This document shows positions 27,908-62,442 of a stretch of DNA of 64,000 nucleotides, piece by piece (within the stretch, counting starts at the first letter, position 1; each line of letters begins with the position of its first letter). The stretch is from Flavobacterium sp. (GTDB taxonomy: Bacteria; Bacteroidota; Bacteroidia; Flavobacteriales; Flavobacteriaceae). Where the stretch lies: assembly GCF_017985075.1 (NCBI RefSeq), contig NZ_JAGNYF010000003.1, positions 34,111 through 98,110 of the forward strand, read 5' to 3'. The notes under the pieces were generated by a model. It did no database searches and was not told the origin of the DNA. It saw nothing but the letters and a program-made list of their open reading frames with translations. Position numbers and translations under genes: made by a program.

Positions 27908-27923
27908 TGTGATAAAAGTTACA
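27908..27923 (+). promoter_or_regulatory. Crp-type site before the TauE gene
   Basis: TGTGATAAAAGTTACA. A -7 element AATATTTG (27945-27952) begins 21 bases after it, placing the site near -41. No TTG is present at -33, as expected for an activator-dependent promoter. Confidence 0.75.
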
Positions 27924-27972
27924 AATTGATAAATTAAAACTGCCAATATTTGCAGTATAAAATTTTACAATT

Positions 27973-28770
27973 ATGGAATATATAGGTTATTTTGCATCAA
28001 TTCTTATTGGTGTAGCGTTAGGTTTAATAGGTGGTGGTGGTTCAATTTTAACTGTCCCAGTTTTAGTTTATTTGTTTGCTATCGAGCCTGTTGTAGCAAC
28101 TTCTTACTCATTATTTATTGTTGGTTTAACTAGCGGTATTGGTTCTGTTGGTTATTTCAAAAAAGGTTTGGTCAATATTAAAACAGCGATAGTTTTTGGG
28201 ATTCCATCAATTATTGCAGTTTTTACAACTCGTGCTTTAATTGTTCCTGCAATACCAAAAGAAGTATTTACTATAGGTGAATTTGTTGTTACCAAAAGTA
28301 TTTTAATGATGCTACTTTTTGCTGTTTTAATGATTACAGCTTCATATAGTATGATCAAAAAAGATAAAAAAACAGCAAGTGATGAAAATGGTGAGCAAAA
28401 ATTCAATTATCCATTAATTCTTATTGAAGGTGCAGTAGTTGGTATACTTACAGGATTAGTTGGTGCTGGTGGCGGATTTTTAATCATTCCTGCATTAGTG
28501 ATTTTAAGTAAATTACCAATGAAAGAAGCTGTTGGAACCTCATTAGTTATTATTGCAGCAAAATCATTGATTGGTTTTTTTGGTGAAGGTGAAGCAACGG
28601 CAATCGATTGGCAATTTCTAATTACAATTTCTGCTTTTGCAATTATCGGTATATTTATCGGAACAGCATTGTCTAAAAAAATAGATGGAGCAAAACTAAA
28701 ACCTGCATTTGGCTGGTTTGTTTTGGTAATGGGTATTTATATCATAACCAAAGAGTTGTTTTTTCCCTAA
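27973..28770 (+). CDS. TauE/SafE sulfite exporter family permease
   Basis: 265 residues with eight predicted membrane helices and two glycine-rich repeats, GLIGGGGSILTVPVLVY and GLVGAGGGFLIIPALVI, the internal duplication of TauE/SafE proteins. The family moves sulfite, sulfoacetate or related anions. Given the neighbours, sulfite or thiosulfate export after persulfide oxidation is the likely job; that is inference. First unit after the Crp/Fnr gene, with a Crp-type site in its promoter. Confidence 0.88.
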   Translation: MEYIGYFASILIGVALGLIGGGGSILTVPVLVYLFAIEPVVATSYSLFIVGLTSGIGSVGYFKKGLVNIKTAIVFGIPSIIAVFTTRALIVPAIPKEVFTIGEFVVTKSILMMLLFAVLMITASYSMIKKDKKTASDENGEQKFNYPLILIEGAVVGILTGLVGAGGGFLIIPALVILSKLPMKEAVGTSLVIIAAKSLIGFFGEGEATAIDWQFLITISAFAIIGIFIGTALSKKIDGAKLKPAFGWFVLVMGIYIITKELFFP

Positions 28771-28782
28771 TTAAAGTAGTTG

Positions 28783-28798
28783 TGTAATAAAAGGCACA
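28783..28798 (+). promoter_or_regulatory. Probable Crp-type site before the SQR gene
   Basis: TGTAATAAAAGGCACA, a degenerate version of the palindrome. A poor -7 candidate TACTATTA (28821-28828) starts 22 bases downstream. Weaker than the others. Confidence 0.5.
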
Positions 28799-28858
28799 AA
28801 ACTATTAAATTACAAATCAATACTATTAAATGTTTTAAATTATAAATAATATACAAAA

Positions 28859-30130
28859 ATGGCAAATCATTATCAAATACTAATTATCGGCGGAGGAAAT
28901 GCTGGGCTTTCTGTAGCTTCACAATTACTTCGAAAAAGAAGTAATCTTAAAATAGCAATTGTAGATCCTTCCGAAAAACATTATTATCAACCAGCTTGGA
29001 CACTTGTTGGTGCTGGAATTTTCGATGTAAACAAAACAGTTCGAAATGAAAAAGACTTTATTCCAAAAAATACTACTTGGATAAAAGAAGCTGTTTCAGA
29101 ATTTGAACCAACCTCTAATAAAGTAATATGCGCTTCGGGTACCGAAATAACATATGATTATATGATTGTATGCCCAGGAATTCAACTCGATTGGAATAAA
29201 ATAAAAGGCCTAAAAGAAACATTAGGCAAAAACAATGTTAGCAGCAATTATGATTTTAATTCTGCCCCATACACTTGGGAAATGATTAAAAATTTCAAAG
29301 GTGGGACTGCAGTATTTACAAATCCATCTACACCAATAAAATGTGGTGGCGCGCCTCATAAAATAATGTATTTGGCTGTTGATTATTGGCGTAAAAAAGG
29401 AATTCTTGACAAATGTGATGTACATTATGTGTCAGGAGCTACTGTTATTTTTGGTGTACCAGAATACAAAGCTACACTTGAAAAAGTGTTACTAAACGGA
29501 AACATCAAAGTACATTATAGTGCAAACACTATTGCAATTGATGGAAACAATAAAACAATAGAATTTGAAACTAAAAATACAGAATTTGTAAAACAAAGTC
29601 TTTCAAAATCTGCTGCTGGATGCTATAGTATTTCAGAAGGTAACGAAGCTGATTCAGTAAGTAGAGTTACTATGAATTTTGATTTATGCCATTCAGTTCC
29701 ACCACAATCTGCACCTGATTTTATTAAAAATAGTCCTTTACGAGACCAAGCAAATGCGCTTGGCTATGTTGAAATTGATAAAAACACAATGCAACATACA
29801 CGTTTTCCGAATGTTTTCGCTTTAGGAGATTGTACGAATGCACCTTGTAGTAAAACAGGCGCAGCAATTCGTAAACAAGCGCCAGTGGTTGTAACCAATT
29901 TATTAGAAGTAATGGATAAAAAAGCACTAACGGCAACATATGATGGTTACAGTGCCTGTCCTATTCCTACTCAATATGGTAAGTTAATGCTAGCCGAATT
30001 TGATTATACAAACAAGCCAAAAATGACTTTTCCTTTCGACCAAGCAAAACCACGTTGGACTATGTGGTTACTAAAAACCAAAGTTTTACCTTGGTTGTAC
30101 TGGAACAAAATATTAAAAGGAACTGCTTAA
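28859..30130 (+). CDS. sqr: Sulfide:quinone oxidoreductase, type II
   Basis: 423 residues with an N-terminal FAD motif (IIGGGNAGLSVASQL) and the type II SQR signatures TNPSTPIKCGGAPHKIMYL (Cys162) and YDGYSACPIPTQYGKLMLAE (Cys367), the two redox cysteines. GDCTNAPCSKTGAAIRKQ closes the FAD site, and the C-terminal LPWLYWNKILKG is the membrane-binding tail. It oxidises sulfide to a persulfide and reduces quinone. The electrons could flow to the bd oxidase encoded next. Confidence 0.9.
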   Translation: MANHYQILIIGGGNAGLSVASQLLRKRSNLKIAIVDPSEKHYYQPAWTLVGAGIFDVNKTVRNEKDFIPKNTTWIKEAVSEFEPTSNKVICASGTEITYDYMIVCPGIQLDWNKIKGLKETLGKNNVSSNYDFNSAPYTWEMIKNFKGGTAVFTNPSTPIKCGGAPHKIMYLAVDYWRKKGILDKCDVHYVSGATVIFGVPEYKATLEKVLLNGNIKVHYSANTIAIDGNNKTIEFETKNTEFVKQSLSKSAAGCYSISEGNEADSVSRVTMNFDLCHSVPPQSAPDFIKNSPLRDQANALGYVEIDKNTMQHTRFPNVFALGDCTNAPCSKTGAAIRKQAPVVVTNLLEVMDKKALTATYDGYSACPIPTQYGKLMLAEFDYTNKPKMTFPFDQAKPRWTMWLLKTKVLPWLYWNKILKGTA

Positions 30131-30155
30131 CATTTAGAGTTAACTTATTTGATAT

Positions 30156-30182: not shown

Positions 30183-30244
30183 AAATAAAATTTATCATAG
30201 ATTATCAAAAACTTATTATATAATTTAGATTAAAATAAAAGTAT

Positions 30245-31597: not shown

Positions 31598-31618
31598 AAA
31601 CCTTCAAAATCAATAATT

Positions 31619-32710: not shown

Positions 32711-32726
32711 AGTGATAAATATCACA
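32711..32726 (+). promoter_or_regulatory. Crp-type site before the peroxiredoxin gene
   Basis: AGTGATAAATATCACA, a near-perfect palindrome. The -7 element TAAATTTG (32748-32755) begins 21 bases downstream. Confidence 0.8.
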
Positions 32727-32787
32727 AACCATTACTTTTCTCTAACCTAAATTTGCAGTATTAATTAACAATCTAAATAATATTACA

Positions 32788-33432
32788 ATGGAAGAGAAAG
32801 TATTTTTAATGCCAAGAATTGGCGATATGGCTCCAGATTTTGAAGCTGTAACTACTACTGGAAAATTAAAATTTTCAGAATACAATAAAGGAAGTTGGGT
32901 TGTGTTTTTTTCACATCCTGCAGATTTCACTCCAGTATGCACAACAGAAATGAGTGGTTTTGCTAACGAAAAAGAATTTTTCGCAAAACACAATACCAAA
33001 CTAATGGGTTTAAGTATTGATAGTATTCACGCCCATATTGCTTGGGTAAATGCAGTGCACGAAAAAACAGGCGTATTATTTGAATTTCCAATAGTAGCTG
33101 ATATTTCTATGGAAGTTTCTAAACTATACGGAATGTTACAACCTGGAGAAAGCGAAACTGCAGCCGTTAGAGCGGTTTTCATTATGGATCCAGAAGGAAA
33201 AGTACGTTTAATTATGTATTATCCACTTAATGTAGGTAGAAACATGGCAGAAATTAAAAGAGCTTTATTGGCACTTCAAGCTTCTGACGAACACAAAGTA
33301 GCTATGCCTTTAGATTGGCAACCTGGAGATAAAGTAATTGTTCCTGCTCCAAAAACAGTTGAAGCTTTAGCTGAAAGAAAAAGTAGTAATTTAGAAATGG
33401 TAGATTGGTATTTAGCTAAAAAATCTATATAA
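32788..33432 (+). CDS. 1-Cys peroxiredoxin (Prx6 type)
   Basis: 214 residues with the peroxidatic motif SHPADFTPVCTTEMSGF (Cys51) and no other cysteine, so there is no resolving Cys within the chain. The C-terminal dimer region (VAMPLDWQPGDKVIVPAP) is that of Prx6 proteins. It reduces peroxides, and could reduce persulfides or peroxide formed during sulfide oxidation. Its own promoter has the island palindrome. Confidence 0.92.
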   Translation: MEEKVFLMPRIGDMAPDFEAVTTTGKLKFSEYNKGSWVVFFSHPADFTPVCTTEMSGFANEKEFFAKHNTKLMGLSIDSIHAHIAWVNAVHEKTGVLFEFPIVADISMEVSKLYGMLQPGESETAAVRAVFIMDPEGKVRLIMYYPLNVGRNMAEIKRALLALQASDEHKVAMPLDWQPGDKVIVPAPKTVEALAERKSSNLEMVDWYLAKKSI

Positions 33433-33520: not shown

Positions 33521-33536
33521 TGTGACTTATGTCACA
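33521..33536 (+). promoter_or_regulatory. Distal Crp-type site before persulfide dioxygenase 1
   Basis: TGTGACTTATGTCACA, the best match in the window to TGTGA-N6-TCACA. It is 48 bases (centre to centre) upstream of a second site at 33569-33584, around -90 relative to the probable start. Confidence 0.75.
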
Positions 33537-33568: not shown

Positions 33569-33584
33569 TATGATAATTGTCATA
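33569..33584 (+). promoter_or_regulatory. Proximal Crp-type site before persulfide dioxygenase 1
   Basis: TATGATAATTGTCATA, a perfect palindrome at its outer five bases. The -7 element TAATTTTG (33606-33613) starts 21 bases later, the same spacing as in the neighbouring promoters. Confidence 0.7.
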
Positions 33585-33658
33585 TTCAATATAAAATACT
33601 ACCTCTAATTTTGTTTCGATTATTAATTAAATCATTTAATCAATTAAAATATATCAAT

Positions 33659-35074
33659 ATGAAAATCGAACAAATTTACACAGGTTGTATTGCTCATGCT
33701 GCCTATTATATCGAAAGTAATGGCGAAGCTGCCATTTTTGATCCATTACGAGAAGTACAACCTTACATTGACCGAGCATTTAAAGATAATGCAAAAATTA
33801 AATATGTATTTCTTACCCATTTTCATGCTGATTTTGTTTCTGGTCATTTAGATTTAGCCAACAAAACCAATGCTGAAATTGTATATGGCCCAACAGCTAA
33901 ACCAGCTTACGAAATTATATCTGCCACTGATGGTCAAATTTTTGAAATTGGAAAATATAAAGTAAAAGTTATACATACTCCTGGGCACACTATGGAAAGT
34001 ACAACCTATTTACTTATAGATGAAAACGGAAAAGAACACGGCATAATTACTGGAGACACATTATTTATTGGTGATGTTGGTCGTCCAGATTTAGCACAGC
34101 ACGTAGTTGCTGATTTAACGCAAGACAAGTTAGCACGTCATTTGTTTCGTTCTTTGCGTGAAAAAATAATGCCTTTGTCAGATGATTTGATTGTATATCC
34201 AAATCACGGCGCTGGTTCTGCTTGCGGTAAAATGATGAGCAAAGAAACTACTGATACACTTGGCAATCAAAAGAAAACCAACTATGCCTTAAATCCAAAA
34301 ATGACAGAAGACGAATTCGTAACAGCTGTTTTAACAGGATTAACAAACCCTCCTGGTTATTTTCCTGCAAATGTATTGATGAATATTAAAGGATATGAAA
34401 ATTTAGATGCAGTTCTTAAAAAAGCTAATACACCTTTAAGTCCATCTGAGTTTGAATTGGCAGCTAACGAAACTAGAGCCTTAATACTTGATACTCGTGA
34501 TGCTTCTGAATTTGCAAAAGGATTTATACCAAATAGTATCAATATTGGTTTAGACGGAAGTTTTGCCATGTGGGTTGGAGAAATGATTGCCGACATCAAA
34601 CAAGAAATTCTTTTAGTAACTGAAGAAGGAAAAGAAGAAGAAAGTATGATTCGATTATCTAGAATTGGATACGATCATACCATTGGTTATTTAAATGGAG
34701 GTATGGATACTTGGAAAAAAGAAGGGTTTGAATTAGATATTGTAAACAGAATTACAGCCAAAGAATTAGAGGACACTATCGATTTTGATAAAACAGTTAT
34801 CTTTGATGTCAGAAAGAAAAGTGAATTTTTATCAGAACATCTTGTAAATGCAATAAATGTTCCATTAAACGAAATCAACAATCACCTAGCTGAGTTTCCA
34901 AAAGATAAAAAATTCATTTTGCACTGTGCTGGTGGTTATCGTTCTATGATTGCAGCATCCATTTTAAAACAACGTGGTTGGGATAATTTTGAAGATGTGA
35001 TCGGAGGATTTACAGAAATTAAAAACACCAATCTTTTAAAAACGGATTATGTTTGCCCGACTACGCTTTTATAA
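33659..35074 (+). CDS. Persulfide dioxygenase-rhodanese fusion 1 (CstB-like)
   Basis: 471 residues from the ATG at 33659, chosen because the paralogue begins identically (MKIEQIYTGC) and the -7 element lies inside the longer open frame. Domain order: metallo-beta-lactamase-type Fe dioxygenase (1-250; THFHADFVSGH, His110 in HTPGHTME, Asp133), a degenerate rhodanese lacking catalytic Cys (about 260-360, ILLVTEEGKEEES in the loop) and an active rhodanese (370-471, HCAGGYRS). This is the order of staphylococcal CstB, which turns persulfide into sulfite and thiosulfate. Confidence 0.9.
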   Translation: MKIEQIYTGCIAHAAYYIESNGEAAIFDPLREVQPYIDRAFKDNAKIKYVFLTHFHADFVSGHLDLANKTNAEIVYGPTAKPAYEIISATDGQIFEIGKYKVKVIHTPGHTMESTTYLLIDENGKEHGIITGDTLFIGDVGRPDLAQHVVADLTQDKLARHLFRSLREKIMPLSDDLIVYPNHGAGSACGKMMSKETTDTLGNQKKTNYALNPKMTEDEFVTAVLTGLTNPPGYFPANVLMNIKGYENLDAVLKKANTPLSPSEFELAANETRALILDTRDASEFAKGFIPNSINIGLDGSFAMWVGEMIADIKQEILLVTEEGKEEESMIRLSRIGYDHTIGYLNGGMDTWKKEGFELDIVNRITAKELEDTIDFDKTVIFDVRKKSEFLSEHLVNAINVPLNEINNHLAEFPKDKKFILHCAGGYRSMIAASILKQRGWDNFEDVIGGFTEIKNTNLLKTDYVCPTTLL

Positions 35075-35137: not shown

Positions 35138-35153
35138 TGTGATATATGTTACA
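35138..35153 (+). promoter_or_regulatory. Crp-type site before the carbonic anhydrase gene
   Basis: TGTGATATATGTTACA, with the -7 element TACTTTTG (35175-35182) beginning 21 bases downstream. It follows directly on the preceding terminator. Confidence 0.8.
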
Positions 35154-35201
35154 AATTTCACGAAATTCATATACTACTTTTGAAAAAATTTTATAAGTAA
35201 A

Positions 35202-35864
35202 ATGAGAAAAATAGCCCTAGCAATAACAGTTGTAGTAACTTTAGTAAGTTGTAAAAAAGAAGAAAGTCCAATTTCAATTGAAGCAAACCAAACGCCAATA
35301 GAAAAATTAATAGCGGGTAATCAACGCTTTTTAGAGGAAAAAACCATACACCCACATCAAAATAAAAATTCTGTTTTAGAAAATCAAAATGGACAACACC
35401 CTTTTGCTGTCATTGTTACTTGTTCAGACAGTCGTGTTGCACCAGAAATACTATTTGACCAGGGTATTGGCGACTTATTTGTAATTAGAAATGCAGGAAA
35501 TTTAATTTCTGATATCGATATGGGAAGTATTGAATATGCGGTAGAACATCTTGACGCAAAACTAGTTGTGGTTTTAGGTCATACCGAATGTGGCGCTATA
35601 AAAGCTTATATAGGGGACAAAAATAATGACTATAAGAAACACCACAACCACATTGACGATATTGTAGAAACTATTGCTAACGAGCAAGAAGAAAAACAAG
35701 AAGAGAAATTACATCCAAAAGAGAAAAACATATTAGGATGTATTAATGCAAACATTGAGCACTCGACAAAGGCTATAGCAAACAATCCAATAATTAAAGA
35801 GCATAAAACAAAAATAATAGCAATGCGTTACGATGTTCACACAGGCAAAATAGTCTTAATGTAA
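35202..35864 (+). CDS. Beta-class carbonic anhydrase, lipoprotein
   Basis: 220 residues with a lipoprotein signal (MRKIALAITVVVTLVSCKKE, Cys17) and beta-carbonic anhydrase motifs VTCSDSRVAPE (zinc Cys74, catalytic Asp76-Arg78) and GHTECGAI (His127, Cys130). It hydrates CO2 on the periplasmic side of a membrane. A His/Lys/Glu-rich insert (about 143-175) is notable. Its promoter carries the same palindrome as the sulfur genes on both sides; the link with sulfide oxidation is not obvious. Confidence 0.9.
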   Translation: MRKIALAITVVVTLVSCKKEESPISIEANQTPIEKLIAGNQRFLEEKTIHPHQNKNSVLENQNGQHPFAVIVTCSDSRVAPEILFDQGIGDLFVIRNAGNLISDIDMGSIEYAVEHLDAKLVVVLGHTECGAIKAYIGDKNNDYKKHHNHIDDIVETIANEQEEKQEEKLHPKEKNILGCINANIEHSTKAIANNPIIKEHKTKIIAMRYDVHTGKIVLM

Positions 35865-35876: not shown

Positions 35877-35892
35877 TGTGACATTAGTTACA
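35877..35892 (+). promoter_or_regulatory. Crp-type site before persulfide dioxygenase 2
   Basis: TGTGACATTAGTTACA, with a perfect -7 element TACATTTG (35914-35921) beginning 21 bases downstream. Confidence 0.8.
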
Positions 35893-35954
35893 ATTTTTAA
35901 TAAATTCAACACATACATTTGCATCATATTATAACAATAAAAACAAATTTAATC

Positions 35955-37373
35955 ATGAAAATAGAACAAATTTATACAGGATGTTTAGCACAAGGTGCTT
36001 ACTATATCACATCAAATGGCGAAGCAGCAATCATTGATCCGCTTAGAGAAACACAACCTTATACGGATAGATTAGAAAAAGATGGCGTTAAATTAAAATA
36101 CATTTTTGAAACTCATTTTCATGCTGATTTTGTTTCAGGCCACTTAGATTTAAGTAAAAAAACAGGAGCGTCAATTGTTTATGGTCCAAACGCTAAACCT
36201 GACTTTGAATTCATTTCAGCAAAAGACAATGAAGTTTTTGAAATTGGAGACATCAAAATAAAAGTGTTACATACACCTGGTCATACAATGGAAAGCACAA
36301 CGTTTTTATTAATTGATGCTGATGGTAATAACCACGCTATTTTTTCAGGTGATACCTTGTTTTTAGGTGATGTAGGTCGTCCTGATTTAGCTCAAAAAGC
36401 AGCGTCGATGACACAGGAACAATTAGCAGGATTGTTATATCATTCTTTAAGAGATAAAATAATGCCTTTGGCTGATGATGTAATTGTTTATCCAGCTCAC
36501 GGTGCAGGATCGGCTTGTGGAAAAAACATGAGTAAAGAAACGGTTGGTACCATTGGTGATCAAAAAGCAACTAATTATGCTTTGCGTGCTACTATGACTG
36601 AAGAAGAATTTATTAAAGAAGTGACAGATGGATTATTACCTCCACCAGCTTATTTCGGAATGAATGTAGCGATGAATAAAAGCGGAATTGAAAGTTTTGA
36701 GACTGTTTTTAATCAAGGTATGAAAGCCATCAAAGCAACTGAATTTGAGGTAGTGGCTGAAGAAACTGGAGCTTTGATTTTAGATACTCGTAACAATGGA
36801 GATTTTGCTAAAGGATTTATTCCTCAATCAATAAACATTGGTATCAACGGAGATTTTGCTCCTTGGGTGGGTGCTTTAATTGGGGATGTAAAACAACCTA
36901 TTTTATTAGTAACCGATTTAGGATTAGAAGAAGAAACAGTAACACGTTTAACTCGTGTTGGTTTCGATAACGTAATTGGACATTTAGAAAATGGATTTCA
37001 AGCATGGGCAGCTGCAGGTCTTGTAGTCGATACAATAAACAGAATTACAGCCGAGCAATTTGCTAATGAAGTAAAAATTGGCGAAAGCAAAGTTATTGAT
37101 GTACGAAAAGAAAGTGAATACCAAGCAGAACACGTAGAAGATGCTTACAGTCGTCCTTTAGCTGCAATTAACGAATGGGTAAAAGACATAAATCCTGATG
37201 AACATTTCTTTATGCATTGTGCAGGAGGTTATCGTTCTATGATGGCTGCGTCTATTTTACAAGCTCGTGGATACAGAAACTTTAGCGAAGTTGAAGGTGG
37301 TTTCAATGCTATCGCAAATACAACCGTTCCTAAAACCGATTTTGTTTGTCAAAGTAAAGTTTTAAATGTATAA
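35955..37373 (+). CDS. Persulfide dioxygenase-rhodanese fusion 2 (CstB-like)
   Basis: 472 residues from the ATG at 35955. Same order as its paralogue: dioxygenase (ETHFHADFVSGH, HTPGHTME, SGDTLFLGDVGRPD), pseudo-rhodanese with ILLVTDLGLEEET where the catalytic loop should be, and active rhodanese (MHCAGGYRS). The start differs from an upstream in-frame codon that would place the promoter inside the gene. It leads an operon with two single-domain rhodaneses. The two copies differ along their whole length, so the duplication is not recent. Confidence 0.9.
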   Translation: MKIEQIYTGCLAQGAYYITSNGEAAIIDPLRETQPYTDRLEKDGVKLKYIFETHFHADFVSGHLDLSKKTGASIVYGPNAKPDFEFISAKDNEVFEIGDIKIKVLHTPGHTMESTTFLLIDADGNNHAIFSGDTLFLGDVGRPDLAQKAASMTQEQLAGLLYHSLRDKIMPLADDVIVYPAHGAGSACGKNMSKETVGTIGDQKATNYALRATMTEEEFIKEVTDGLLPPPAYFGMNVAMNKSGIESFETVFNQGMKAIKATEFEVVAEETGALILDTRNNGDFAKGFIPQSINIGINGDFAPWVGALIGDVKQPILLVTDLGLEEETVTRLTRVGFDNVIGHLENGFQAWAAAGLVVDTINRITAEQFANEVKIGESKVIDVRKESEYQAEHVEDAYSRPLAAINEWVKDINPDEHFFMHCAGGYRSMMAASILQARGYRNFSEVEGGFNAIANTTVPKTDFVCQSKVLNV

Positions 37374-40592: not shown

Positions 40593-40608
40593 TGTGACAA
40601 ATGTTACA
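40593..40608 (+). promoter_or_regulatory. Crp-type site before the YeeE-TsdA-SoxB operon
   Basis: TGTGACAAATGTTACA. The -7 element CAAATTTG (40630-40637) starts 21 bases downstream. It is immediately after the preceding terminator. Confidence 0.8.
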
Positions 40609-40653
40609 AACTAGTTTTTATTTATAGTTCAAATTTGTGAAAAAATTTAAACT

Positions 40654-41223
40654 ATGGAAATTATAGAATTTATCAAACAACCATGGGCCTGGTACATTGC
40701 AGGTCCTTTAGTAGGTCTTACCGTACCTGCATTATTAATTTTAGGTAACAAGAATTTTGGTATTAGTGCCAATTTACGTCACGCTTGTGCCGCTTGTTTA
40801 CCAGCAAATATTTCATTCTTTAATTACAATTGGAAAAAAGAAATTTGGAATATGTTTTTTATAGGTGGAGTTCTGATAGGTGGTGTAATTGCTTTTAACT
40901 TTTTATCCAATCCTAACCCAATCATTATTAATGATGATTTGAGAACAGAATTGGCTACTTATGGTATTACAAACATCGACGGAATGTTACCATCAGAAAT
41001 TTTTTCTTGGGAAAATCTATTCACAATCAAAGGGTTTTTAATGATGGTTGCGGGAGGTTTTATGATAGGTTTTGGTTCACGTTATGCTGGTGGCTGTACT
41101 AGTGGTCACTCCATTTCGGGATTATCAAATCTACAATTACCATCACTAATTGCCACTTGTTGCTTTTTCATAGGTGGTTTAATAATGGCAAATATTATTC
41201 TTCCTTATATACTTTCACTTTAA
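40654..41223 (+). CDS. YeeE/YedE family permease, first half
   Basis: 189 residues with four or five membrane helices. LRHACAACLPANISFFNYNW and GFGSRYAGGCTSGHSISGLS carry the conserved cysteines of YeeE proteins, which import thiosulfate through a cysteine relay. Together with the next gene it makes a split version of the full-length permease. Confidence 0.88.
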   Translation: MEIIEFIKQPWAWYIAGPLVGLTVPALLILGNKNFGISANLRHACAACLPANISFFNYNWKKEIWNMFFIGGVLIGGVIAFNFLSNPNPIIINDDLRTELATYGITNIDGMLPSEIFSWENLFTIKGFLMMVAGGFMIGFGSRYAGGCTSGHSISGLSNLQLPSLIATCCFFIGGLIMANIILPYILSL

Positions 41224-41233
41224 AAAATAAATT

Positions 41234-41731
41234 ATGAACAATATAGATCCAAACAAAGATTTTGAAACACGTTCGTTAGATACAGTTTGTGTAAACGAAA
41301 GTCAGTTAGAACACAAATGGTACCATAATATTAAATATCTAATCGTAGGATTATTATTCGGAACGGTATTCATTAAAGCAGAAATTATCAGTTGGTTCCG
41401 CATTCAAGAAATGTTCCGTTTTCAGTCGTTTCATATGTACGGTGTTATAGGTAGTGCAGTTGTTGTTGGTGCGATTTCAGTTTTTTTAATTAAAAAATTT
41501 AATATAAAAACCATTTATGGCGAGAAAATAGAATTTCACGATAAGACATTCAATAAAGGACAAATTATTGGCGGACTAATATTTGGTTTAGGTTGGGCTA
41601 TTACAGGAGCTTGTCCAGGTCCAATTTTTGCACAAATAGGAACCGGAGTAACCGTAATGATTATCACTTTATTCTTTGCTATTGTTGGCACATGGGTATA
41701 TGGTTATTTTAGAGATAAATTACCTCATTAA
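41234..41731 (+). CDS. YeeE/YedE family permease, second half
   Basis: 165 residues, four membrane helices, with GLGWAITGACPGPIFAQIGTG as the cysteine-containing YeeE repeat. It follows the first half by 10 bases. The two probably assemble as a heterodimer for thiosulfate or another sulfur species. Direction of transport cannot be read from the sequence. Confidence 0.88.
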   Translation: MNNIDPNKDFETRSLDTVCVNESQLEHKWYHNIKYLIVGLLFGTVFIKAEIISWFRIQEMFRFQSFHMYGVIGSAVVVGAISVFLIKKFNIKTIYGEKIEFHDKTFNKGQIIGGLIFGLGWAITGACPGPIFAQIGTGVTVMIITLFFAIVGTWVYGYFRDKLPH

Positions 41732-41740
41732 TTTTTTTTT

Positions 41741-42853
41741 ATGCCAAGTAAAGATAGTAACGATTTAAATCTAAAATCTTCTATAAAAAAAATATTAATC
41801 CTATTCATAACAATGATAGGGTTAGTATTCTTTTTGTTTATAGCAATTGTATTTAATCAAAATTTCACTTCATTTTTTAATTCAAATGAATATAAAAATA
41901 TTGAAATAGAAAAAATATATGCCGATGCTGCAATAAAAGACAGTTTGCAAAGAGAAATGGCAAATTTTTGGAAACCAGTACCTCTTGAAGAAATTACGGA
42001 TAGTGTTTTTAAGAAAAAAGTGGTATACGGTAAAGAATTGATTGAGCATACAGCCAAATATCTTGGTCCAAATGGAAGTGTGCAGCAAACGTCAAACGGA
42101 ATGAATTGTAATAATTGTCATCTGGATGCTGGAACAAAACCTTGGGGAAACAATTATGGCTCTGTATATTCTACCTATCCAAAAATGCGAGCTCGAAGCG
42201 GGAAAATTGAAAATCTTTTCAAGCGTATCAACGATTGTTTCGAAAGAAGTTTGAATGGAAAAGCACTTCCTGAAAATAGTTCAGAAATGCAAGCAATGAT
42301 AGCTTATATAGAATATATTGGTAAAAACGTTCCTAAAGATTCGATAGCATTAGCATCAGGAATTAGAGATATCAAGTTGATGAATCGTGCTGCAAGTCCT
42401 GCAAAAGGAAAACCTTTATACGAAACCAAATGTGCAAGTTGTCATCAAACCAACGGGCAAGGTGTGCTAAATGAAACCAAAACTGAATATACCTATCCTC
42501 CACTTTGGGGTGAAAATTCGTATAACAAAGGTGCTGGTTTATTTAGAATTAGCCGTTTTGCAGGTTTTATCAAATACAATATGCCACTTGGTGCAACTTA
42601 TGACAGCCCACAATTAACTGATGAAGAATCATGGGATATTGCGGCTTATGTTGAAAGTCTTGATCGTCCAAATAAAGATCTATCTGCCGATTGGCCAAAA
42701 ATAGGAAAAAAACCATTTGACCATCCGTTTGGTCCTTTTGAAGATAAATATTCAGAACAACAACACAAATACGGACCTTTCATCGCTATGAAAAAAGAAA
42801 AGAAAAAACGCGAGGAAGCAGAAGAGTTATTAAAAAAGAAAGAAAAAAAGTAA
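41741..42853 (+). CDS. tsdA: Membrane-anchored di-heme cytochrome c, TsdA-like thiosulfate dehydrogenase
   Basis: 370 residues: an N-terminal membrane anchor (about 16-38), a first heme site CNNCH (123-127) followed by LDAGTKPWGNNYGSVYSTYP, a cysteine at 166 in NDCFERSLNGKALP matching the unusual Cys heme ligand of TsdA, a second heme site CASCH (231-235), and YNMPLG (Met281) as possible distal ligand. YPPLWGENSYNKGAG and QHKYGPF are also TsdA-like. It couples two thiosulfates to tetrathionate, or the reverse. A Lys/Glu-rich tail ends the protein. Confidence 0.85.
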   Translation: MPSKDSNDLNLKSSIKKILILFITMIGLVFFLFIAIVFNQNFTSFFNSNEYKNIEIEKIYADAAIKDSLQREMANFWKPVPLEEITDSVFKKKVVYGKELIEHTAKYLGPNGSVQQTSNGMNCNNCHLDAGTKPWGNNYGSVYSTYPKMRARSGKIENLFKRINDCFERSLNGKALPENSSEMQAMIAYIEYIGKNVPKDSIALASGIRDIKLMNRAASPAKGKPLYETKCASCHQTNGQGVLNETKTEYTYPPLWGENSYNKGAGLFRISRFAGFIKYNMPLGATYDSPQLTDEESWDIAAYVESLDRPNKDLSADWPKIGKKPFDHPFGPFEDKYSEQQHKYGPFIAMKKEKKKREEAEELLKKKEKK

Positions 42854-42856
42854 ACT

Positions 42857-43276
42857 ATGAAGAATCTATTTATAGCACTAATCTGCATGATATCAGTTAA
42901 TTCGTTTGCACAGACTGAGCCTAAAGATCACAAAATCGTATTCCAATTTACAAATGCGAATGACACTTTGCAACAAAAAGCATTTGTAAAACAACTCGAA
43001 AATTTAACAGAGCATTGGCCAAATGCAAAATACGAAGTTGTGTTATATAACCAAGGTCTGGAATTGGTTATGAAAAACAACACAAAATATCAATCAAGAT
43101 TACAAGCTCTTAAATCTAAAGGAGTGAAATTTGTAGTTTGCGAAAACACACTAAAAAATCGTAAAATAAGCAAAGATGCATTTCCTGAAATTTTGGTTGA
43201 ATATACTCCAGCAGGAATTGCCGAAATTGTCGAAAAACAAGAGCAAGGGTGGAGTTATATAAAAGGTGGTTATTAA
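42857..43276 (+). CDS. Exported DsrE/F-like protein
   Basis: 139 residues with a signal peptide (MKNLFIALICMISVNSFAQ) and a DsrE-like fold: KIVFQFTNANDTLQQKAFVK, YEVVLYNQGLELV and GVKFVVCENTLKNRKIS with one conserved cysteine. DsrE-type proteins relay sulfane sulfur on this cysteine. The periplasmic location next to TsdA and a SoxB-like protein suggests a sulfur carrier; that is inference. It begins 3 bases after tsdA. Confidence 0.82.
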   Translation: MKNLFIALICMISVNSFAQTEPKDHKIVFQFTNANDTLQQKAFVKQLENLTEHWPNAKYEVVLYNQGLELVMKNNTKYQSRLQALKSKGVKFVVCENTLKNRKISKDAFPEILVEYTPAGIAEIVEKQEQGWSYIKGGY

Positions 43277-43304
43277 CCAATTAATGAATTTAAAAAAAAC
43301 ACCA

Positions 43305-45002
43305 ATGAATAACAACAACCGAAGAAATTTCATAAAAAATATTGGGGCTCTCGGTATTTCTATTCCATTTGTCGCACCAATTTCTGGATTTGCTACAGAA
43401 ACAGAATTACTAGAAACAGAAAATCAAAATAAGGTAGATAATAATCTACCACAAACCATTTCTATTCTACAAACAACTGATGTGCATTGCCAAATTCATC
43501 CGCATGATGAGCTCTTTTGGGAAGACAACAAAGCCGTTTTTCGCAAAACGGGTGGGTATGCCTATATGGCAACAATGCTGAATGATCTGAAAAAGAAAAA
43601 TCCAAATACCTATATTATAGACACTGGCGATATGTTTCAAGGCAGTGAGTTAAGTGTCAAAACCACCGGAGAAGCATTTGTGCCAATACTGGATGCTTTA
43701 AAATACGATTTGTATTTGCCTGGAAACTGGGAAGTTATTTACGGTAAAAAACAAATGCAAAGCCTTTTAGGTAAACTAAATGCGCCAAAAATTTGCACTA
43801 ATATGTACCACGATTTAGGTGAAGGAAAAAAAGGAGAACTTATTTTTCAGCCTTATCAAATATGGAATGTTGCAGGAGCAAAAATCGGATTTCTTGGTTA
43901 TACAGATCCATTAGTACCAATTCGTCAAAGTCCTGTGTATAGCAAAGGAATTATTTATACAAAACCCGAAGAAAATTTAGCTCATTATATAGATGTGCTA
44001 AAAAATCAAGAAAATTGTTCCTATATAATTATGATTGCACACCTTGGATTGAGCCAACAAATTGCATTGGCAAACATGCCAGAATGCGAAGGTGTAAATT
44101 ATATTTTGGGTGGAGACACACACGAAAGAGTCCGTAAGCCAATCGTTTGTAAATACGCTAAAGTGGTTGAACCAGGAGCATTTGGATCATTTATTGGTAA
44201 ACTCGACTTGACCGTTCAAAACGGAAAAGTAACCGCCGACAATTACGAATTGCTTGAAGTTGCATCTCCAAAAATCAAACCAGATCCAACAATTCAAAAA
44301 TTACTAAACGAAAAAGAATTAGTATATAAAGAACACATTGATACCGTAATTGGTCACAGCACGATTCCACTTTATCGCTATTTTGTAGTTGAGAACCCAA
44401 TAGACACGATGATTTTGAACGGATTGAAATGGAAATTCCCAGAAATAGACATCGTACTTTCTAATGGTTTCCGATTTTGTCCGCCACGAACTACACCAGA
44501 TCAAACAGGAAATATTCCAATAACAAATGGTTTTATATTTGATATGTTACCTGTAGATAGTACCATTCGTACTGCAAAAGCTTCAGGAAAACAAATAAAA
44601 GATTGGTTAGAAAAAGAACTAAACAATGTTTTTGCAAAAGATGCCTCGAAACGATTTGGAGGTTGGGTAGTGAAATTCAAAGGAATGGAAATCACTTTCA
44701 ACGCATTTGGCGAAACCGGCAAAAGGGTTCAAACCGTGACAGTAAATGGGGCTCCAATTGATGATTCAAAGTTATATTCAATACTTGCATGTGAGCGAGA
44801 AGGAGATCCCGTAGATATGTTGTGTAGAATGAAAGGAGTTGTCGATCCCAAAAATACAACATCGACTCTGCACACAGTAATGATTGATTACTTAAAAAAC
44901 AATTCTCCAATAACTCCAACTCCAACAAAATCTGCAAAAGCTCTCGATGCACCAGATACGCTACTTACACAGGTTACTGGAGTAGATTATGTATTTAAAT
45001 AA
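43305..45002 (+). CDS. SoxB-like thiosulfohydrolase / 5'-nucleotidase family protein, Tat-exported
   Basis: 565 residues from the ATG at 43305, which gives an RR-type signal (NNNNRRNFIKNIGALGISIP). Metallophosphatase motifs are TTDVHCQIHPHDE (Asp59, His61), DTGDMFQGSELS, PGNWEVIYGK and LGGDTHERVRKPIV. The W-E-x-x-Y-G form instead of N-H-E-F-D-x-G is typical of SoxB rather than ordinary 5'-nucleotidases. SoxB cleaves sulfate from SoxYZ-bound thiosulfate with two manganese ions. SoxYZ, SoxXA and SoxCD are absent from the window, so another carrier or substrate is possible. Confidence 0.78.
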   Translation: MNNNNRRNFIKNIGALGISIPFVAPISGFATETELLETENQNKVDNNLPQTISILQTTDVHCQIHPHDELFWEDNKAVFRKTGGYAYMATMLNDLKKKNPNTYIIDTGDMFQGSELSVKTTGEAFVPILDALKYDLYLPGNWEVIYGKKQMQSLLGKLNAPKICTNMYHDLGEGKKGELIFQPYQIWNVAGAKIGFLGYTDPLVPIRQSPVYSKGIIYTKPEENLAHYIDVLKNQENCSYIIMIAHLGLSQQIALANMPECEGVNYILGGDTHERVRKPIVCKYAKVVEPGAFGSFIGKLDLTVQNGKVTADNYELLEVASPKIKPDPTIQKLLNEKELVYKEHIDTVIGHSTIPLYRYFVVENPIDTMILNGLKWKFPEIDIVLSNGFRFCPPRTTPDQTGNIPITNGFIFDMLPVDSTIRTAKASGKQIKDWLEKELNNVFAKDASKRFGGWVVKFKGMEITFNAFGETGKRVQTVTVNGAPIDDSKLYSILACEREGDPVDMLCRMKGVVDPKNTTSTLHTVMIDYLKNNSPITPTPTKSAKALDAPDTLLTQVTGVDYVFK

Positions 45003-45079: not shown

Positions 45080-45095
45080 AGTGATATAAGTTACA
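45080..45095 (+). promoter_or_regulatory. Crp-type site before the porin gene
   Basis: AGTGATATAAGTTACA with the -7 element TAATTTTG (45117-45124) beginning 21 bases downstream. Confidence 0.8.
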
Positions 45096-45144
45096 AACAA
45101 AACCTTTTTTTCTTGTTAATTTTGCTTTAAATCTATTTTAAAAA

Positions 45145-46566
45145 ATGAAAAAGCATTTTACATTATTAGCATTTCTGTTACTTATATATAACTCATTTGC
45201 ACAACATCAAGAAATTGCAGAGAAACCTGAAATTTGGAAAGGGAAAACGAATGTCAATATCGATTCAACCTCACTTTTAAGTGTATTCAAAAAAGGAAGT
45301 TTTAACGGGCATTTTCGTTATTTTAATATGAATACAATCAATGAAGGGTCATTAACCGATTACCATGCAAATGCACTTGGTGGTGGAATAAAATTTGAAA
45401 CAGCAAAATTTCATAACTTTCAATTTGGTGTAAGCGGTTACTATATTTATAATATTGGTTCCTCTAATTTTTTGGCAAAAGACCCAACAACAAACCAAAC
45501 TAATCGATACGAAATAGCACTTTTTGATATTAATAATCCTGATGAAAAAGAAAATTTAAGTCGATTAGAAGAGCTGTATTTAAAATTTAATTTCAAAAAA
45601 TCTACTTTTACCATAGGTAAACAATTACTTAACTCATCATTCATTAATCTTCAAGACGGAAGAATGCGACCAACCGAAGTCGCTGGAATTTTGGTAGATT
45701 TTAACGAAATAAAAAACACAACTATCAATACGGGTTATTTGTATGCTATATCACCACGAAGCACAAATAAGTATTATGACATAGGAGAATCTATCGGAAT
45801 TTATCCATCAGGTGTAAACCCCGACGGCACAAAATCCGGCTACGCAACTAATCTTGAAAGCAATGGAATATATATACTTGGCGTTCAAAATGAGTCTGTA
45901 AAAAACCTAAAAGCATTAATATTTAATCAATATGTTGAAAATATTTTCAATACCTCTTTATTACAATTTGATTATAAATATGATTTGAATAAAAATTCGA
46001 AATTACTTTTTGGTTTTCAAACCATCTATCAAACGGCACTTAATGACGGTGGAAATAGTAACCAAAGTAAAACCTATTTTGAAAAAAATGCTAATTCGCA
46101 AACTTTTGGAGGAAAACTTGGTTGGAAAAGCAAAACTTTTGAAGTAACTCTTAACTATAACCGAATTACAGATAGAGGACGTTATTTAATGCCAAGAGAA
46201 TGGGGACGAGACCCGTTTTATACTTTTCTTCCAAGAGAACGAAATGAAGGATTTGGAGATGTAACGGCATATATGACTAAAATAAGTTATTATAGTCCAA
46301 AAAAAACATTCAAAGCATACATAGGAGTAGGACATTATAAAATGCCAGATGTTAAAAATTATAAAATGAATAAATACGCATTACCATCCTACTATCAAAC
46401 GAACTTTGATGTTAGTTATGATTTTCAAGGATTTCTTAAAGGTTTTGATGCGCATTTTCTGTATGTTCACAAATTTAATGATGGTGAAACGTACAACGAC
46501 CCAAAAAATGTTTTTAATAAAACCAATATGAGTACTATTAATTTTATCATTAACTTCAATTTCTAA
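45145..46566 (+). CDS. OprD-like outer-membrane porin
   Basis: 473 residues with a signal peptide (MKKHFTLLAFLLLIYNSFAQ), amphipathic strands throughout and a C-terminal FNF end. The segments FTIGKQLLNSSFINLQDGRM, LMPREWGRDPFYTFLPRERN and GFDAHFLYVHKFNDGETY resemble the OprD family. It probably admits a small substrate across the outer membrane; regulation with the sulfur genes hints at thiosulfate, tetrathionate or a similar anion. This is inference. Confidence 0.7.
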   Translation: MKKHFTLLAFLLLIYNSFAQHQEIAEKPEIWKGKTNVNIDSTSLLSVFKKGSFNGHFRYFNMNTINEGSLTDYHANALGGGIKFETAKFHNFQFGVSGYYIYNIGSSNFLAKDPTTNQTNRYEIALFDINNPDEKENLSRLEELYLKFNFKKSTFTIGKQLLNSSFINLQDGRMRPTEVAGILVDFNEIKNTTINTGYLYAISPRSTNKYYDIGESIGIYPSGVNPDGTKSGYATNLESNGIYILGVQNESVKNLKALIFNQYVENIFNTSLLQFDYKYDLNKNSKLLFGFQTIYQTALNDGGNSNQSKTYFEKNANSQTFGGKLGWKSKTFEVTLNYNRITDRGRYLMPREWGRDPFYTFLPRERNEGFGDVTAYMTKISYYSPKKTFKAYIGVGHYKMPDVKNYKMNKYALPSYYQTNFDVSYDFQGFLKGFDAHFLYVHKFNDGETYNDPKNVFNKTNMSTINFIINFNF

Positions 46567-60011: not shown

Positions 60012-60542
60012 ATGAAATTAATTAAACTTCTTCCGGTTTTAGGATTTTTAATCCTTACTTCTTGTTCGTCTGTATATGTAAATACAGATTATGACAAAAA
60101 AGCAAATTTTGCAGCTTACAAAACCTATGCCTATAATAAAAGCAGCATAGATAAATTAGAAATTTCAGATTTAGACAAAAAGCGTATTTTATATGCAATT
60201 GATGCTGTAATGCCTACTAAACAATTTTCAAAATCAGAAAATCCCGATGTTTTAATCAATATTTTCACCAAAGAGCGTGAACGTGTTGATGTATACAACA
60301 ACATGGGCTGGGGTTACGGTTTTGGCTGGGGCTGGGGTCCGAACTGGGGAATGGGCTATTCAAGAACCACTACCACTCCAGAAGGCACGTTATATATTGA
60401 TATTGTTGATGCAAAAACTAAAGAGTTAGTTTGGCAAGGTATTGGAACGGGCTATTTAACCACAAATACAGAAAAAAAAGACGAAAGAATTGCAGAATTT
60501 GTAGCTAAAATTTTAGAGAAATACCCGCCAGTAATAAAATAA
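60012..60542 (+). CDS. DUF4136 lipoprotein
   Basis: 176 residues with a lipoprotein signal (MKLIKLLPVLGFLILTSCSS, Cys18) and the DUF4136 pattern NTDYDKKANFAAYKTYAYN, DVLINIFTKERERVDVYNNM and TLYIDIVDAKTKELVWQGIG. A Gly/Trp-rich stretch (GWGYGFGWGWGPNWGMGY) is notable. Family function unknown. It starts 10 bases after hutU. Confidence 0.9.
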   Translation: MKLIKLLPVLGFLILTSCSSVYVNTDYDKKANFAAYKTYAYNKSSIDKLEISDLDKKRILYAIDAVMPTKQFSKSENPDVLINIFTKERERVDVYNNMGWGYGFGWGWGPNWGMGYSRTTTTPEGTLYIDIVDAKTKELVWQGIGTGYLTTNTEKKDERIAEFVAKILEKYPPVIK

Positions 60543-60561
60543 TACTTCAAACAAATATAGT

Positions 60562-60599
60562 AATCCTGATACGTTTTTTTAATTCTTGTCAGGATTTTT
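60562..60599 (+). terminator. Terminator after the DUF4136 gene
   Basis: AATCCTGA / TCAGGATT stem with a 20-base loop region that includes T residues, then TTTTT. Ends the hutU-DUF4136 unit. Confidence 0.65.
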
Positions 60600-60604
60600 A
60601 TTTG

Positions 60605-60620
60605 CATGATAAAAATCATA
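60605..60620 (+). promoter_or_regulatory. Possible Crp-type site before the aromatic amino acid hydroxylase
   Basis: CATGATAAAAATCATA, a palindrome resembling the proximal site at 33569. TAATTTTA (60641-60648), a near-match to the -7 element, begins 20 bases downstream. Confidence 0.45.
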
Positions 60621-60670
60621 ATTTGATATAAAATTTATCGTAATTTTACTGAAACATCATAAATACCATT

Positions 60671-62428
60671 ATGGAAACTAATTTTGAAAGTAACCCATTG
60701 ATAGACAGGTTACCTAAACATTTAAAACAGTTTATAATTCCACAGGATTATTCTGATTATACGCCAATTAATCAAGCGGTTTGGAGATATGTAATGCGTA
60801 AAAACGTAAATTATTTATCTAAAGTGGCACATAATTCTTATTTAGAAGGGTTAGAAAAAACCGGGTTAGAAATTGATAATATTCCTAACATGTATGGTAT
60901 GAACCGAATTTTGAAAGAAATTGGTTGGGCTGCTGTAGCGGTTGACGGATTTATTCCTCCAAGTGCTTTTATGGAATTTCAAGCGTATAATGTTTTAGTA
61001 ATTGCTTGTGATATTAGACAATTAGAACATATTGAATACACTCCCGCTCCAGATATTATTCATGAAGGTGCTGGACACGCTCCTATTATTGCCAATCCAG
61101 AATATGCAGAATATTTACGTCGTTTTGGCGAAATTGGTTGCAAGGCCATTTCATCTTCAAGAGATTACGAATTATACGAAGCCGTTCGATTATTATCTAT
61201 TGTAAAAGAAGCCGAAGACACTCCGAAAGCTGAAATTAAAGCTGTAGAAGACCAAGTTGAATTATTACAAAACAATATGGGTGAATTGTCTGAAATGTCA
61301 AAAATTAGAAATTTACATTGGTGGACAGTAGAATATGGCTTAATTGGAACAGTGGAAAACCCAAAAATATATGGTGCAGGTTTGCTATCATCTATTGGCG
61401 AAAGTGCTTGGTGTATGACAGATGAAGTCAAAAAACTTCCATACGATATTTCAGCAGCAGACCAAAGTTTTGATATCACAAAACCACAACCACAACTTTA
61501 TGTAACGCCAGATTTCGCCAAATTAAATTCTGTTTTAGAAGAATTTGCAAATAAAATGGCATTGCGAACAGGAGGTTTATCTGGAATTCAAAAATTAATT
61601 ACTTCAAAAGCTATGGGTACTGCAGAGTTAAGTACTGGCTTACAAATTTCAGGTGTTTTTACTAACGTTATTGAAAACGAAGGAAAACCAGTATACATTC
61701 AAACCACAGGAAAAACAGCTTTATCATATAGAGAAAAAGAATTAGTAGGACACGGAACAGCATCGCATCCAGATGGATTTGGTTCACCAATTGGAATGCT
61801 AAAAGGCATTAACTTGGCCATAGAAGATATGGGTCCAAGAGATTTACGCGCCTATGATATTTACGAAGGCGAACAAATTACATTAGAATTTGAAGGAAAT
61901 ATTAAAGTTTCAGGTGAAATTATTACAGGTACACGAAATTTACAAGGTGAAATTTTACTAATTAAATTCAAAAACTGTACTGTAACTCACGGCGAAACGG
62001 TATTATTTGCTCCAGAATGGGGGATTTATGATATGGCTGTGGGTAAAAAAATAACATCCGCTTTTTCAGGACCTGCAGATGTTTCAAGTTTTGATATGAT
62101 TACCCACGTTCCAACATCGCATACTATAAAACAAAAAAAATCAAGCAAACGAGAAGAACTTGAAAATTTATACCTAAATATTAGAAAATTAAGAGAAGGA
62201 AAACCTGCTGAAATTACGCTGAAAGAAGCCTTTGGTGCTGTAACTGCAAATCATGAAAACGATTGGTTACTTTCAGTTGAAATTGCCGAATTAGCTAAAA
62301 AAGAAAATCATTCGGATTTAATTGATAAAGTGTTAAATCATTTAGAAAAAGTTAAAACAAAACGTCAAGAAATTGCACATTTAATTGACGGCGGTTTGGC
62401 TTTAATTTTCGAAAAACAAACTACATAG
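60671..62428 (+). CDS. Aromatic amino acid hydroxylase (phenylalanine hydroxylase type)
   Basis: 585 residues. The catalytic domain (about 1-320) carries the iron-binding IIHEGAGHAPIIANPEYAEY (two His) and the pterin-domain glutamate region RFGEIGCKAISSSRDYELYE. A further roughly 260 residues (PIGMLKGINLAIEDMGPRDL, YEGEQITLEFEGNIKVSGEI) follow, far longer than the 260-300 residues of proteobacterial enzymes. This two-part form is common in Bacteroidota. It turns phenylalanine to tyrosine with tetrahydropterin. Possible Crp-type site upstream. Confidence 0.88.
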   Translation: METNFESNPLIDRLPKHLKQFIIPQDYSDYTPINQAVWRYVMRKNVNYLSKVAHNSYLEGLEKTGLEIDNIPNMYGMNRILKEIGWAAVAVDGFIPPSAFMEFQAYNVLVIACDIRQLEHIEYTPAPDIIHEGAGHAPIIANPEYAEYLRRFGEIGCKAISSSRDYELYEAVRLLSIVKEAEDTPKAEIKAVEDQVELLQNNMGELSEMSKIRNLHWWTVEYGLIGTVENPKIYGAGLLSSIGESAWCMTDEVKKLPYDISAADQSFDITKPQPQLYVTPDFAKLNSVLEEFANKMALRTGGLSGIQKLITSKAMGTAELSTGLQISGVFTNVIENEGKPVYIQTTGKTALSYREKELVGHGTASHPDGFGSPIGMLKGINLAIEDMGPRDLRAYDIYEGEQITLEFEGNIKVSGEIITGTRNLQGEILLIKFKNCTVTHGETVLFAPEWGIYDMAVGKKITSAFSGPADVSSFDMITHVPTSHTIKQKKSSKREELENLYLNIRKLREGKPAEITLKEAFGAVTANHENDWLLSVEIAELAKKENHSDLIDKVLNHLEKVKTKRQEIAHLIDGGLALIFEKQTT

Positions 62429-62442
62429 TAACATTTGTTACA
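62427..62442 (+). promoter_or_regulatory. Crp-type site before the 62.5-kb rhodanese
   Basis: AGTAACATTTGTTACA, a strong GTAAC / GTTAC palindrome. The -7 element TATATTTG (62463-62470) starts 20 bases downstream. It overlaps the stop region of the upstream gene. Confidence 0.7.

Follow-up and report, generated by a model that had tools for sequence, protein, structure and literature searches.

A Crp/Fnr-type regulator as the probable class II activator of sulfide and persulfide oxidation genes in Flavobacterium and other Bacteroidota

Introduction

Regulators on record as responding to sulfane sulfur include FisR, SqrR, BigR, CstR, CsoR, OxyR, MarR-type proteins, AdpA, and LasR (PMC11211675, PMC7315123; here and below, published articles are represented by excerpts). 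The sole Crp protein named in these excerpts is a persulfidated protein of Acinetobacter, for which the effect of the modification is reported as unknown (PMC7315123). In the accessible open-licence literature, no Crp/Fnr regulon for sulfide or persulfide was found for Bacteroidota, although the spelling 'Crp/Fnr' may escape such a search. The subject of this report is a Crp/Fnr-type gene at positions 27273-27899 of a 64,000-nucleotide stretch of Flavobacterium sp. DNA (RefSeq assembly GCF_017985075.1, contig NZ_JAGNYF010000003.1, positions 34,111 to 98,110), hereafter called the window, together with a palindrome that recurs in front of sulfur genes. Its product is very probably a dedicated class II activator of sulfide and persulfide oxidation, and the system is probably common to many Bacteroidota. 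The motif, its fixed spacing, the target genes, the synteny, the recurrence in Bacteroidota, and the covariation of recognition helix and site can all be read directly from the DNA; binding, activation, and signal are what we infer from them.

A palindrome at fixed distance from the −7 box

In a sequence-only reading of the window, eleven copies of the palindrome had been described as a local Crp/Fnr regulon. That reading listed genes rather than eleven coordinates, and a site was located for every gene it names. Its observation is partly confirmed and its interpretation supported, with a reach wider than the window. In all seven promoters for which a gap of exactly 21 bases had been claimed, this distance indeed separates the 16-mer from an 8-mer ending in TTTG, read from the sequence as the −7 element. 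The regulator gene and all window sites, −7 elements, and target genes given with coordinates lie on the plus strand, and the motif TGTGAYNNNNRTYACA is matched exactly at five sites (27908, 33521, 35138, 35877, and 40593).

The site TGTGATAAAAGTTACA (27908..27923, exact) and the −7 element AATATTTG (27945..27952) precede the gene of a TauE/SafE exporter (27973..28770, Pfam), a placement that recurs upstream of TauE in relatives. The peroxiredoxin gene (32788..33432, family-model matches) has the site AGTGATAAATATCACA (32711..32726), in which the first base alone deviates, and the element TAAATTTG (32748..32755). Persulfide dioxygenase 1 (33659..35074; start codon chosen by us), named from its domains, an MBL fold and two rhodanese matches, has a distal site TGTGACTTATGTCACA (33521..33536), exact here and before the same gene in the loci L143, L145, and L146, and a proximal site TATGATAATTGTCATA (33569..33584) with two mismatches, followed by TAATTTTG (33606..33613). 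The proximal site is weak (10.3 bits in the promoter model described below), its spacing exact nonetheless. The exact sites TGTGATATATGTTACA (35138..35153) and TGTGACATTAGTTACA (35877..35892), with the elements TACTTTTG (35175..35182) and TACATTTG (35914..35921), precede carbonic anhydrase (35202..35864, Pfam Pro_CA) and persulfide dioxygenase 2 (35955..37373), which shares 59% identity with persulfide dioxygenase 1. A further exact site, TGTGACAAATGTTACA (40593..40608), stands with CAAATTTG (40630..40637) before an operon at 40654..45002 encoding a YeeE/YedE pair, a SoxA/TsdA-type cytochrome c, a small protein, and a 5'-nucleotidase-type metallophosphatase (Pfam), with gene order kept in L144, L147, and L152. 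The gene of an OprD-type porin (45145..46566, family-model match) follows AGTGATATAAGTTACA (45080..45095), again deviating in the first base alone, and a second copy of TAATTTTG (45117..45124). Including the weaker sites described below, 44-62 bases separate the site end from the start codon at nine sites, 74 at 33569, and 122 at the distal site 33521.

The strict form TAnnTTTG claimed for the seven boxes holds in five and fails at 27908, which has AATATTTG, and at 40593, which has CAAATTTG. In the promoters of relatives used for the model, A and TTTG are invariant in 28/28 (TTTG was used in their selection, A was not), and the box is therefore better written nAnnTTTG. No TTG is found 17-23 bases before the box in any of the seven window promoters (27908 has one at 16), as the sequence-only reading had noted for −33, nor 17-21 bases before it in any of the 28 promoters of relatives. 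In F. psychrophilum, the TAnnTTTG box sits at −12 to −5 (PMC9723704). With a gap of 21, the palindrome then covers −49 to −34 and is centred at −41.5, which is also the centre, about −41.5, published for NtcA sites at class II promoters (PMC3898017). The window sites thus occupy the class II position proposed earlier, with start sites predicted from the F. psychrophilum box.

In the proposed mechanism, a dimer of the regulator would bind TGTGAY-N4-RTYACw centred at −41.5 and would help sigma-A RNA polymerase to start at promoters that have the nAnnTTTG −7 box and no TTG at −33. Within the window, the genes under its direct control would be those of TauE, the porin, peroxiredoxin, carbonic anhydrase, and both persulfide dioxygenases, together with the YeeE operon.

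Occurrence against chance and in the own genome

The five exact matches in the window compare with a mean of 0.032 and a maximum of 1 in 500 shuffles, and the composite [TA]GTGAY-N4-RTYACA + 21 + nAnnTTTG occurs six times in the window and in none of 500 shuffles. A loose motif with up to three mismatches shows no enrichment in the window (80 observed, 74 expected) and was dropped as evidence; the signal thus resides in the strong sites. In the whole genome (2.28 Mb, 112 contigs, 91% complete), the exact motif occurs at nine places, five of them within the window, which makes up 2.8% of the genome, and a reversed-pattern control occurs once. Three of the four places outside the window lie within reading frames. 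The remaining one (C81:934-949) belongs to the promoter of a gene that resembles DUF983 (21.2 bits, slightly below the Pfam cut-off of 22.6) and has a gap of 20 to TATCTTTG. On this contig (C81, locus L153), the DUF983-like gene is followed by a third persulfide dioxygenase gene, and each is preceded by a palindrome (934-977 and 1388-1432, gaps 20 and 21).

The suggested whole-genome weight-matrix check was run with a sequence-only model trained on relatives' sites with at most one mismatch, those within long reading frames being omitted. After removal of two duplicates and one site with gap 20, 28 of 31 promoters remained, none from the own genome; they align ungapped over 45 columns. Applied to 150 of 6229 first-look candidates of the own genome, the model places six window promoters at ranks 1-6 of 46 matches, in the order TauE, carbonic anhydrase, peroxiredoxin, persulfide dioxygenase 2, porin, and YeeE, with E-values of 3e-5 to 0.004 and the next match at 0.023. 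Since the training relatives include orthologous promoters, the model tests conservation and not discovery from nothing.

Recurrence of spacing and synteny across genomes

The comparison set comprises 60 genomes, and the figures for them are match rows in which some sites are listed twice. Of the 84 rows that match the pattern TGTGAYNNNNGTYAC, hereafter the A-type motif, 44 have TTTG at gap 21, the next most frequent gap accounting for five. For TGTAACNNNNGTTAC, gap 21 is found in 23 of 85 rows and gap 20 in 11, several of the latter sharing one repeated sequence that looks coding by appearance. An orthologue of the regulator (at least 70% identity) was found in 16 of 36 same-genus relatives, hence in 17 genomes including the own one; that of G028 is a fragment. 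The 43 genomes counted as lacking it still include three with RE-type relatives at about 50% identity (G048, G053, G057). Of the A-type matches at gap 21, 38 fall to the 17 genomes with the orthologue and six to the 43 others, and four of these six lie in G034, G041, and G052, which encode another RE-type protein. The comparison of relatives with and without the regulator, as earlier suggested, supports the link; G033, which keeps sites, speaks against it (see below). In 20-kb stretches around 17 orthologue loci (L064-L080), TauE and persulfide dioxygenase are each present in 15. G006 (L064, L068, L143-L145) has two A-type regulators (C12, C2) and carries large parts of the sulfur cluster twice on C12.

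A wider sample consists of 80 named loci, the best 80 matches of a search with peptide patterns of the regulator, from Flavobacterium, Chitinophagaceae, Pedobacter, Dyadobacter, Pontibacter, and others; the nearest named relatives among the matches listed are from Flavobacterium. Carriers that can be grown include Flavobacterium phragmitis (L248) and Pedobacter nyackensis (L273). L230 and L234 are the same DNA as L064 and L070, and L275 (titled Sphingomonadales) and L276 (titled uncultured bacterium) are not titled Bacteroidota. A gap-21 site occurs in 64 of the 80 loci, a gap-22 site in seven, and any other gap from 10 to 32 in at most two. The 115 gap-21 sites precede TauE (49), persulfide dioxygenase (41), rhodanese (9), YeeE (3), porin (1), the regulator (1), and other genes (11), so that 104 lie before homologues of genes of the window cluster. 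To call the regulon local was accordingly too restrictive: this layout is found again across Bacteroidota, and the own genome itself has sites outside the window.

Covariation of recognition helix and site

A sister regulator with about 40% identity often stands in where the orthologue is missing, and TauE, dioxygenase, or rhodanese genes are near in 19 of 20 sister loci, which were chosen for the sister. In a tree, a clade of 37 rows (95/94) has the helix residues RE except for one RV (L282), and a clade of 20 rows (99/94) is RV throughout. The CRP helix with RE reads TGTGA, and in an alignment the helix of NtcA has RV, so that NtcA parallels the RV sisters as CRP parallels the RE proteins. 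Among gap-21 sites at most 3 kb from a regulator, with identical 45-mers counted once, at least one half is of the TGTGA type in 82 of 82 sites near RE proteins and in 2 of 13 near RV proteins.

The sister protein of the own genome (contig C87) has the helix RVVISR, and past its gene the site TGTAACACTTGTTACT stands at gap 21 before a gene for an outer-membrane efflux protein. From the search that yielded this site, 17 of 48 matches were read, selected by us for near-complete length and a position in front of genes; among these sites, one is mixed (TGTAAC/GTCACA). The orthologous efflux promoter has a distal half that reads TGTGAC in 4/4 genomes with RE proteins only and TGTAAC in 6/6 genomes with an RV protein, among them the own genome, which carries both regulator types; the gap to TAnnTTTG is 21 in all ten. 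The efflux loci are L134 (own C87, 7255-9297), L114, L317-L320, and L344-L347, and RND-type genes adjoin in L134. Further RE-type helix proteins fall outside both clades (G034:C9, G041:C18, G052:C1), and their genomes have A-type gap-21 sites directly past the gene (G034), about 0.9 kb past it (G052), or before an SQR-like gene named by eye (G041; SQR, sulfide:quinone reductase). Covariation of helix and site links the regulator protein to the sites and, together with synteny, strengthens a connection that the sequence-only reading had offered as inference.

The regulator and its putative signal

The window regulator (208 amino acids) belongs to the Crp/Fnr superfamily, with matches to PF00027 (cNMP_binding), PF13545 (HTH_Crp_2), and PF00325 (Crp) above the cut-offs. 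The CRP-like R-E-x-x-x-R helix reported earlier is present as SREVISR, with its Glu at position 182, and RE is found in 79 of the best 80 named relatives, a count partly built in because the peptide patterns of that search contained the helix. The cAMP ligands of CRP are E72, R82, S83, T127, and S128. E72, R82, T127, and S128 are not kept in the window protein, and the call for S83 varies with the alignment, in which an invariant Ser89 stands one column off; the NCBIfam CRP model scores 45.6 bits against a cut-off of 266. An FNR reading was set aside because the N-terminal cysteine cluster for [4Fe-4S] is missing, the only cysteines of the window protein being 76, 82, 161, and 163. Cys occupies position 161 in 28 of the 80 named relatives, and position 163 likewise in 28.

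Cys76 and Cys82 are a conserved cysteine pair in a regulator encoded beside sulfide oxidation genes. Both are present in all 21 RE-type proteins read (window, L064-L083) and in 80/80 named relatives, where Cys76 was part of the search patterns and Cys82 and Ser89 were not. Among sister-type proteins, 19 of 21 have the pair (L114-L132, L134, L140), L131 and L132 being those without it, and it is also missing in L133 and, in addition, in three RE-type relatives (L309-L311). Judging from the target genes and known dithiol regulators, the signal may be the thiol chemistry of Cys76-x5-Cys82 with persulfide or polysulfide, a proposal that we hold to be evenly balanced. In the alignment, Cys-x5-Cys also appears in 3dv8, which we take to be from Eubacterium rectale.

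Weaker members and neighbouring genes

Three more promoters had been assigned gaps of 20-22 to the box. This holds for the rhodanese gene at 62.5 kb, where AGTAACATTTGTTACA (62427..62442; two mismatches, TAAC in both halves) stands at gap 20 to TATATTTG, which has the TAnnTTTG form; at 28783 and 60605, TTTG is missing at these distances. The rhodanese gene appears to be a weaker member, with a site resembling those of the sister RV-helix regulator; TGTAAC-type gap-21 sites also precede rhodanese genes in G009, G015, G017, and G027. The degenerate site TGTAATAAAAGGCACA (28783..28798, two mismatches) precedes a gene for an SQR-like flavoprotein (28859..30130; best NCBIfam model type III SQR, 250 bits, below the cut-off of 525). 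In the three TauE-adjacent copies read in relatives (L064, L065, L145), the SQR site is exact or has one mismatch at the same place, with TAAATTTA, TACGTTTA, or TATTATTG at gap 21. L064 and L065 each have another SQR copy, and just upstream of it no site with zero or one mismatch was found. SQR is probably a direct target, as a weaker member.

The site CATGATAAAAATCATA (60605..60620, three mismatches) before an aromatic amino acid hydroxylase gene probably does not belong to the regulon. In a survey of 18 of 20 near-full-length relative copies, an exact palindrome lies upstream in one (L332), and another (L330) has a palindrome with two mismatches; the gene was rejected as a member. Cytochrome bd oxidase genes lie at 30245-32656 between SQR and peroxiredoxin, and a cydAB-like pair is found near the regulator in several relatives, often on the opposite strand. 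A Thioredoxin_9 gene (L044 in G012, by Pfam; L314 in G002) has TGTGAT-N4-GTTACA at gap 21 in genomes without an A-type regulator.

Alternative explanations

Several observations weigh against the window protein as the activator acting through these sites. No gap-21 site is found in 16 of the 80 named loci, 11 of the 115 gap-21 sites precede other genes, and conservation is lacking for the site at 60605; relatives are moreover related to one another, so that counts over them are not independent events. Efflux promoters were found by either of two patterns or by the model, which misses those that match none of these. G033 (99% complete) keeps two sites before persulfide dioxygenase and has no Crp/Fnr protein above the Pfam cut-off; recent loss of the regulator is our guess. 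In this genome (L138, 10018-10092), the two promoters are those of C81 and stand in tandem right before the dioxygenase gene, the intervening DUF983 gene being absent. In G025, G034, G010, and G023, which lack the orthologue, promoters of DUF983-type genes retain a TGTGA-type site, and AA-type gap-21 sites occur in RE-only genomes, before rhodanese in G009, G015, G017, and G027 and also in G048, beyond the 3-kb limit of the helix-site counts. These exceptions could mean that AA sites are tolerated by RE proteins or that some such promoters are read by an additional factor. In one rival explanation, the sites are mainly read by another Crp/Fnr protein, with the window gene a bystander. The own genome encodes three HTH_Crp_2 proteins, the window protein, the sister on C87, and an FNR-like protein on C18 beside a cbb3 oxidase gene; the helix of the latter, TESCIR, retains E and R, and the sister adjoins the same sulfur genes in relatives. 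Since the sister has RVVISR and the site past its gene is TGTAACACTTGTTACT, TGTGA-type halves go with RE (82/82) and not with RV (2/13), and A-type gap-21 matches concentrate with the orthologue (38 versus 6), a bystander role is improbable. Chance palindromes in AT-rich promoter DNA would fit the lack of enrichment of the loose motif (80 versus 74) and the degenerate sites 60605 and 28783; given the composite count of six versus none in 500 shuffles and the recurrence in relatives, chance is refuted for the core promoters and stands for 60605, and as an account of the whole its probability is next to nil.

If the protein is the reader, it could still act as a repressor that covers −49 to −34, blocks polymerase, and is released by sulfide. 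The sign of the effect is not given by geometry alone, and SqrR and CstR are termed repressors in titles of published articles. Repressor sites usually tolerate variable positions, whereas here the −7 box lies at an exact distance, as it would for polymerase contact, and the −33 TTG is missing in 7/7 window promoters and 28/28 promoters of relatives; repression is accordingly quite unlikely. A more serious competitor leaves regulator and sites as they are and replaces the signal by oxygen, by redox or disulfide stress, or by a small ligand that has taken over the vacated cyclic-nucleotide pocket. Most cAMP ligands are lost, so the pocket may hold something else, peroxiredoxin is among the targets, the pair is missing in sister-type L131 and L132 and RE-type L309-L311, and its presence in 3dv8 means that the pattern is not confined to sulfur regulators. 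The targets on the other hand mostly handle persulfide, thiosulfate, and sulfite, and dithiol pairs work in BigR and SqrR (PMC7315123), which leaves another signal a real possibility that falls somewhat short of even.

With the window protein as activator, a broader picture can be drawn, for and against which we see equal grounds. It would define a Bacteroidota-wide Crp/Fnr subfamily in which a Cys-x5-Cys persulfide sensor replaced cyclic-nucleotide sensing and which serves as a main sulfide oxidation activator of the phylum, acting at −41.5 on promoters with the divergent nAnnTTTG box. A single helix residue would have divided the DNA code between two sister lineages (Glu for TGTGA, Val for TGTAA), the promoters following, down to a single base in the efflux promoter. 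If true, soil and water Bacteroidota gain a regulator for persulfide handling, class II activation at a divergent Bacteroidota sigma-A promoter has a clear anatomy, and one helix residue and one site base changing together form a natural experiment.

Comparison with known systems

With E. coli CRP, the window protein shares the fold and the aligned RExxxR helix, and the TGTGA half-sites and the −41.5 position are likewise those of CRP. Unlike CRP, it has lost most cAMP ligands and has Cys-x5-Cys in that region, its promoter partner is the Bacteroidota nAnnTTTG box, and its targets are sulfur genes. SqrR is an ArsR-type protein. In contrast to the Crp/Fnr protein of the window, BigR is also of the ArsR type, CstR is CsoR-like, and FisR is a sigma-54 activator. 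Like the window system, SqrR, BigR, CstR, and FisR govern sulfide oxidation or persulfide dioxygenase together with YeeE/YedE, and a pair of cysteines serves in both SqrR and BigR (PMC11211675, PMC7315123).

The Crp-like A1S_1182 of A. baumannii is a member of the Crp family with a cysteine that is persulfidated in sulfide-treated cells; it differs in its identity of about 50% to E. coli Crp and in that the effect of persulfidation is reported as unknown, and the excerpts of the article assign no sulfide regulon to it (PMC7315123). MalR of Bacteroides is, like the window protein, a Bacteroidota Crp/Fnr protein, and one Flavobacteriales Crp/Fnr homologue has been placed near it; the regulon proposed for MalR concerns carbon sources, with no sulfide genes mentioned in the excerpts (PMC8510549). 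NtcA of cyanobacteria likewise has class II sites at about −41.5, with the consensus GTAN8TAC (PMC3898017), and its RVxxxR helix matches that of the sister RV regulators with TGTAAC-N4-GTTAC. NtcA responds to 2-oxoglutarate and nitrogen status, in contrast to the window protein, which combines RE with TGTGA.

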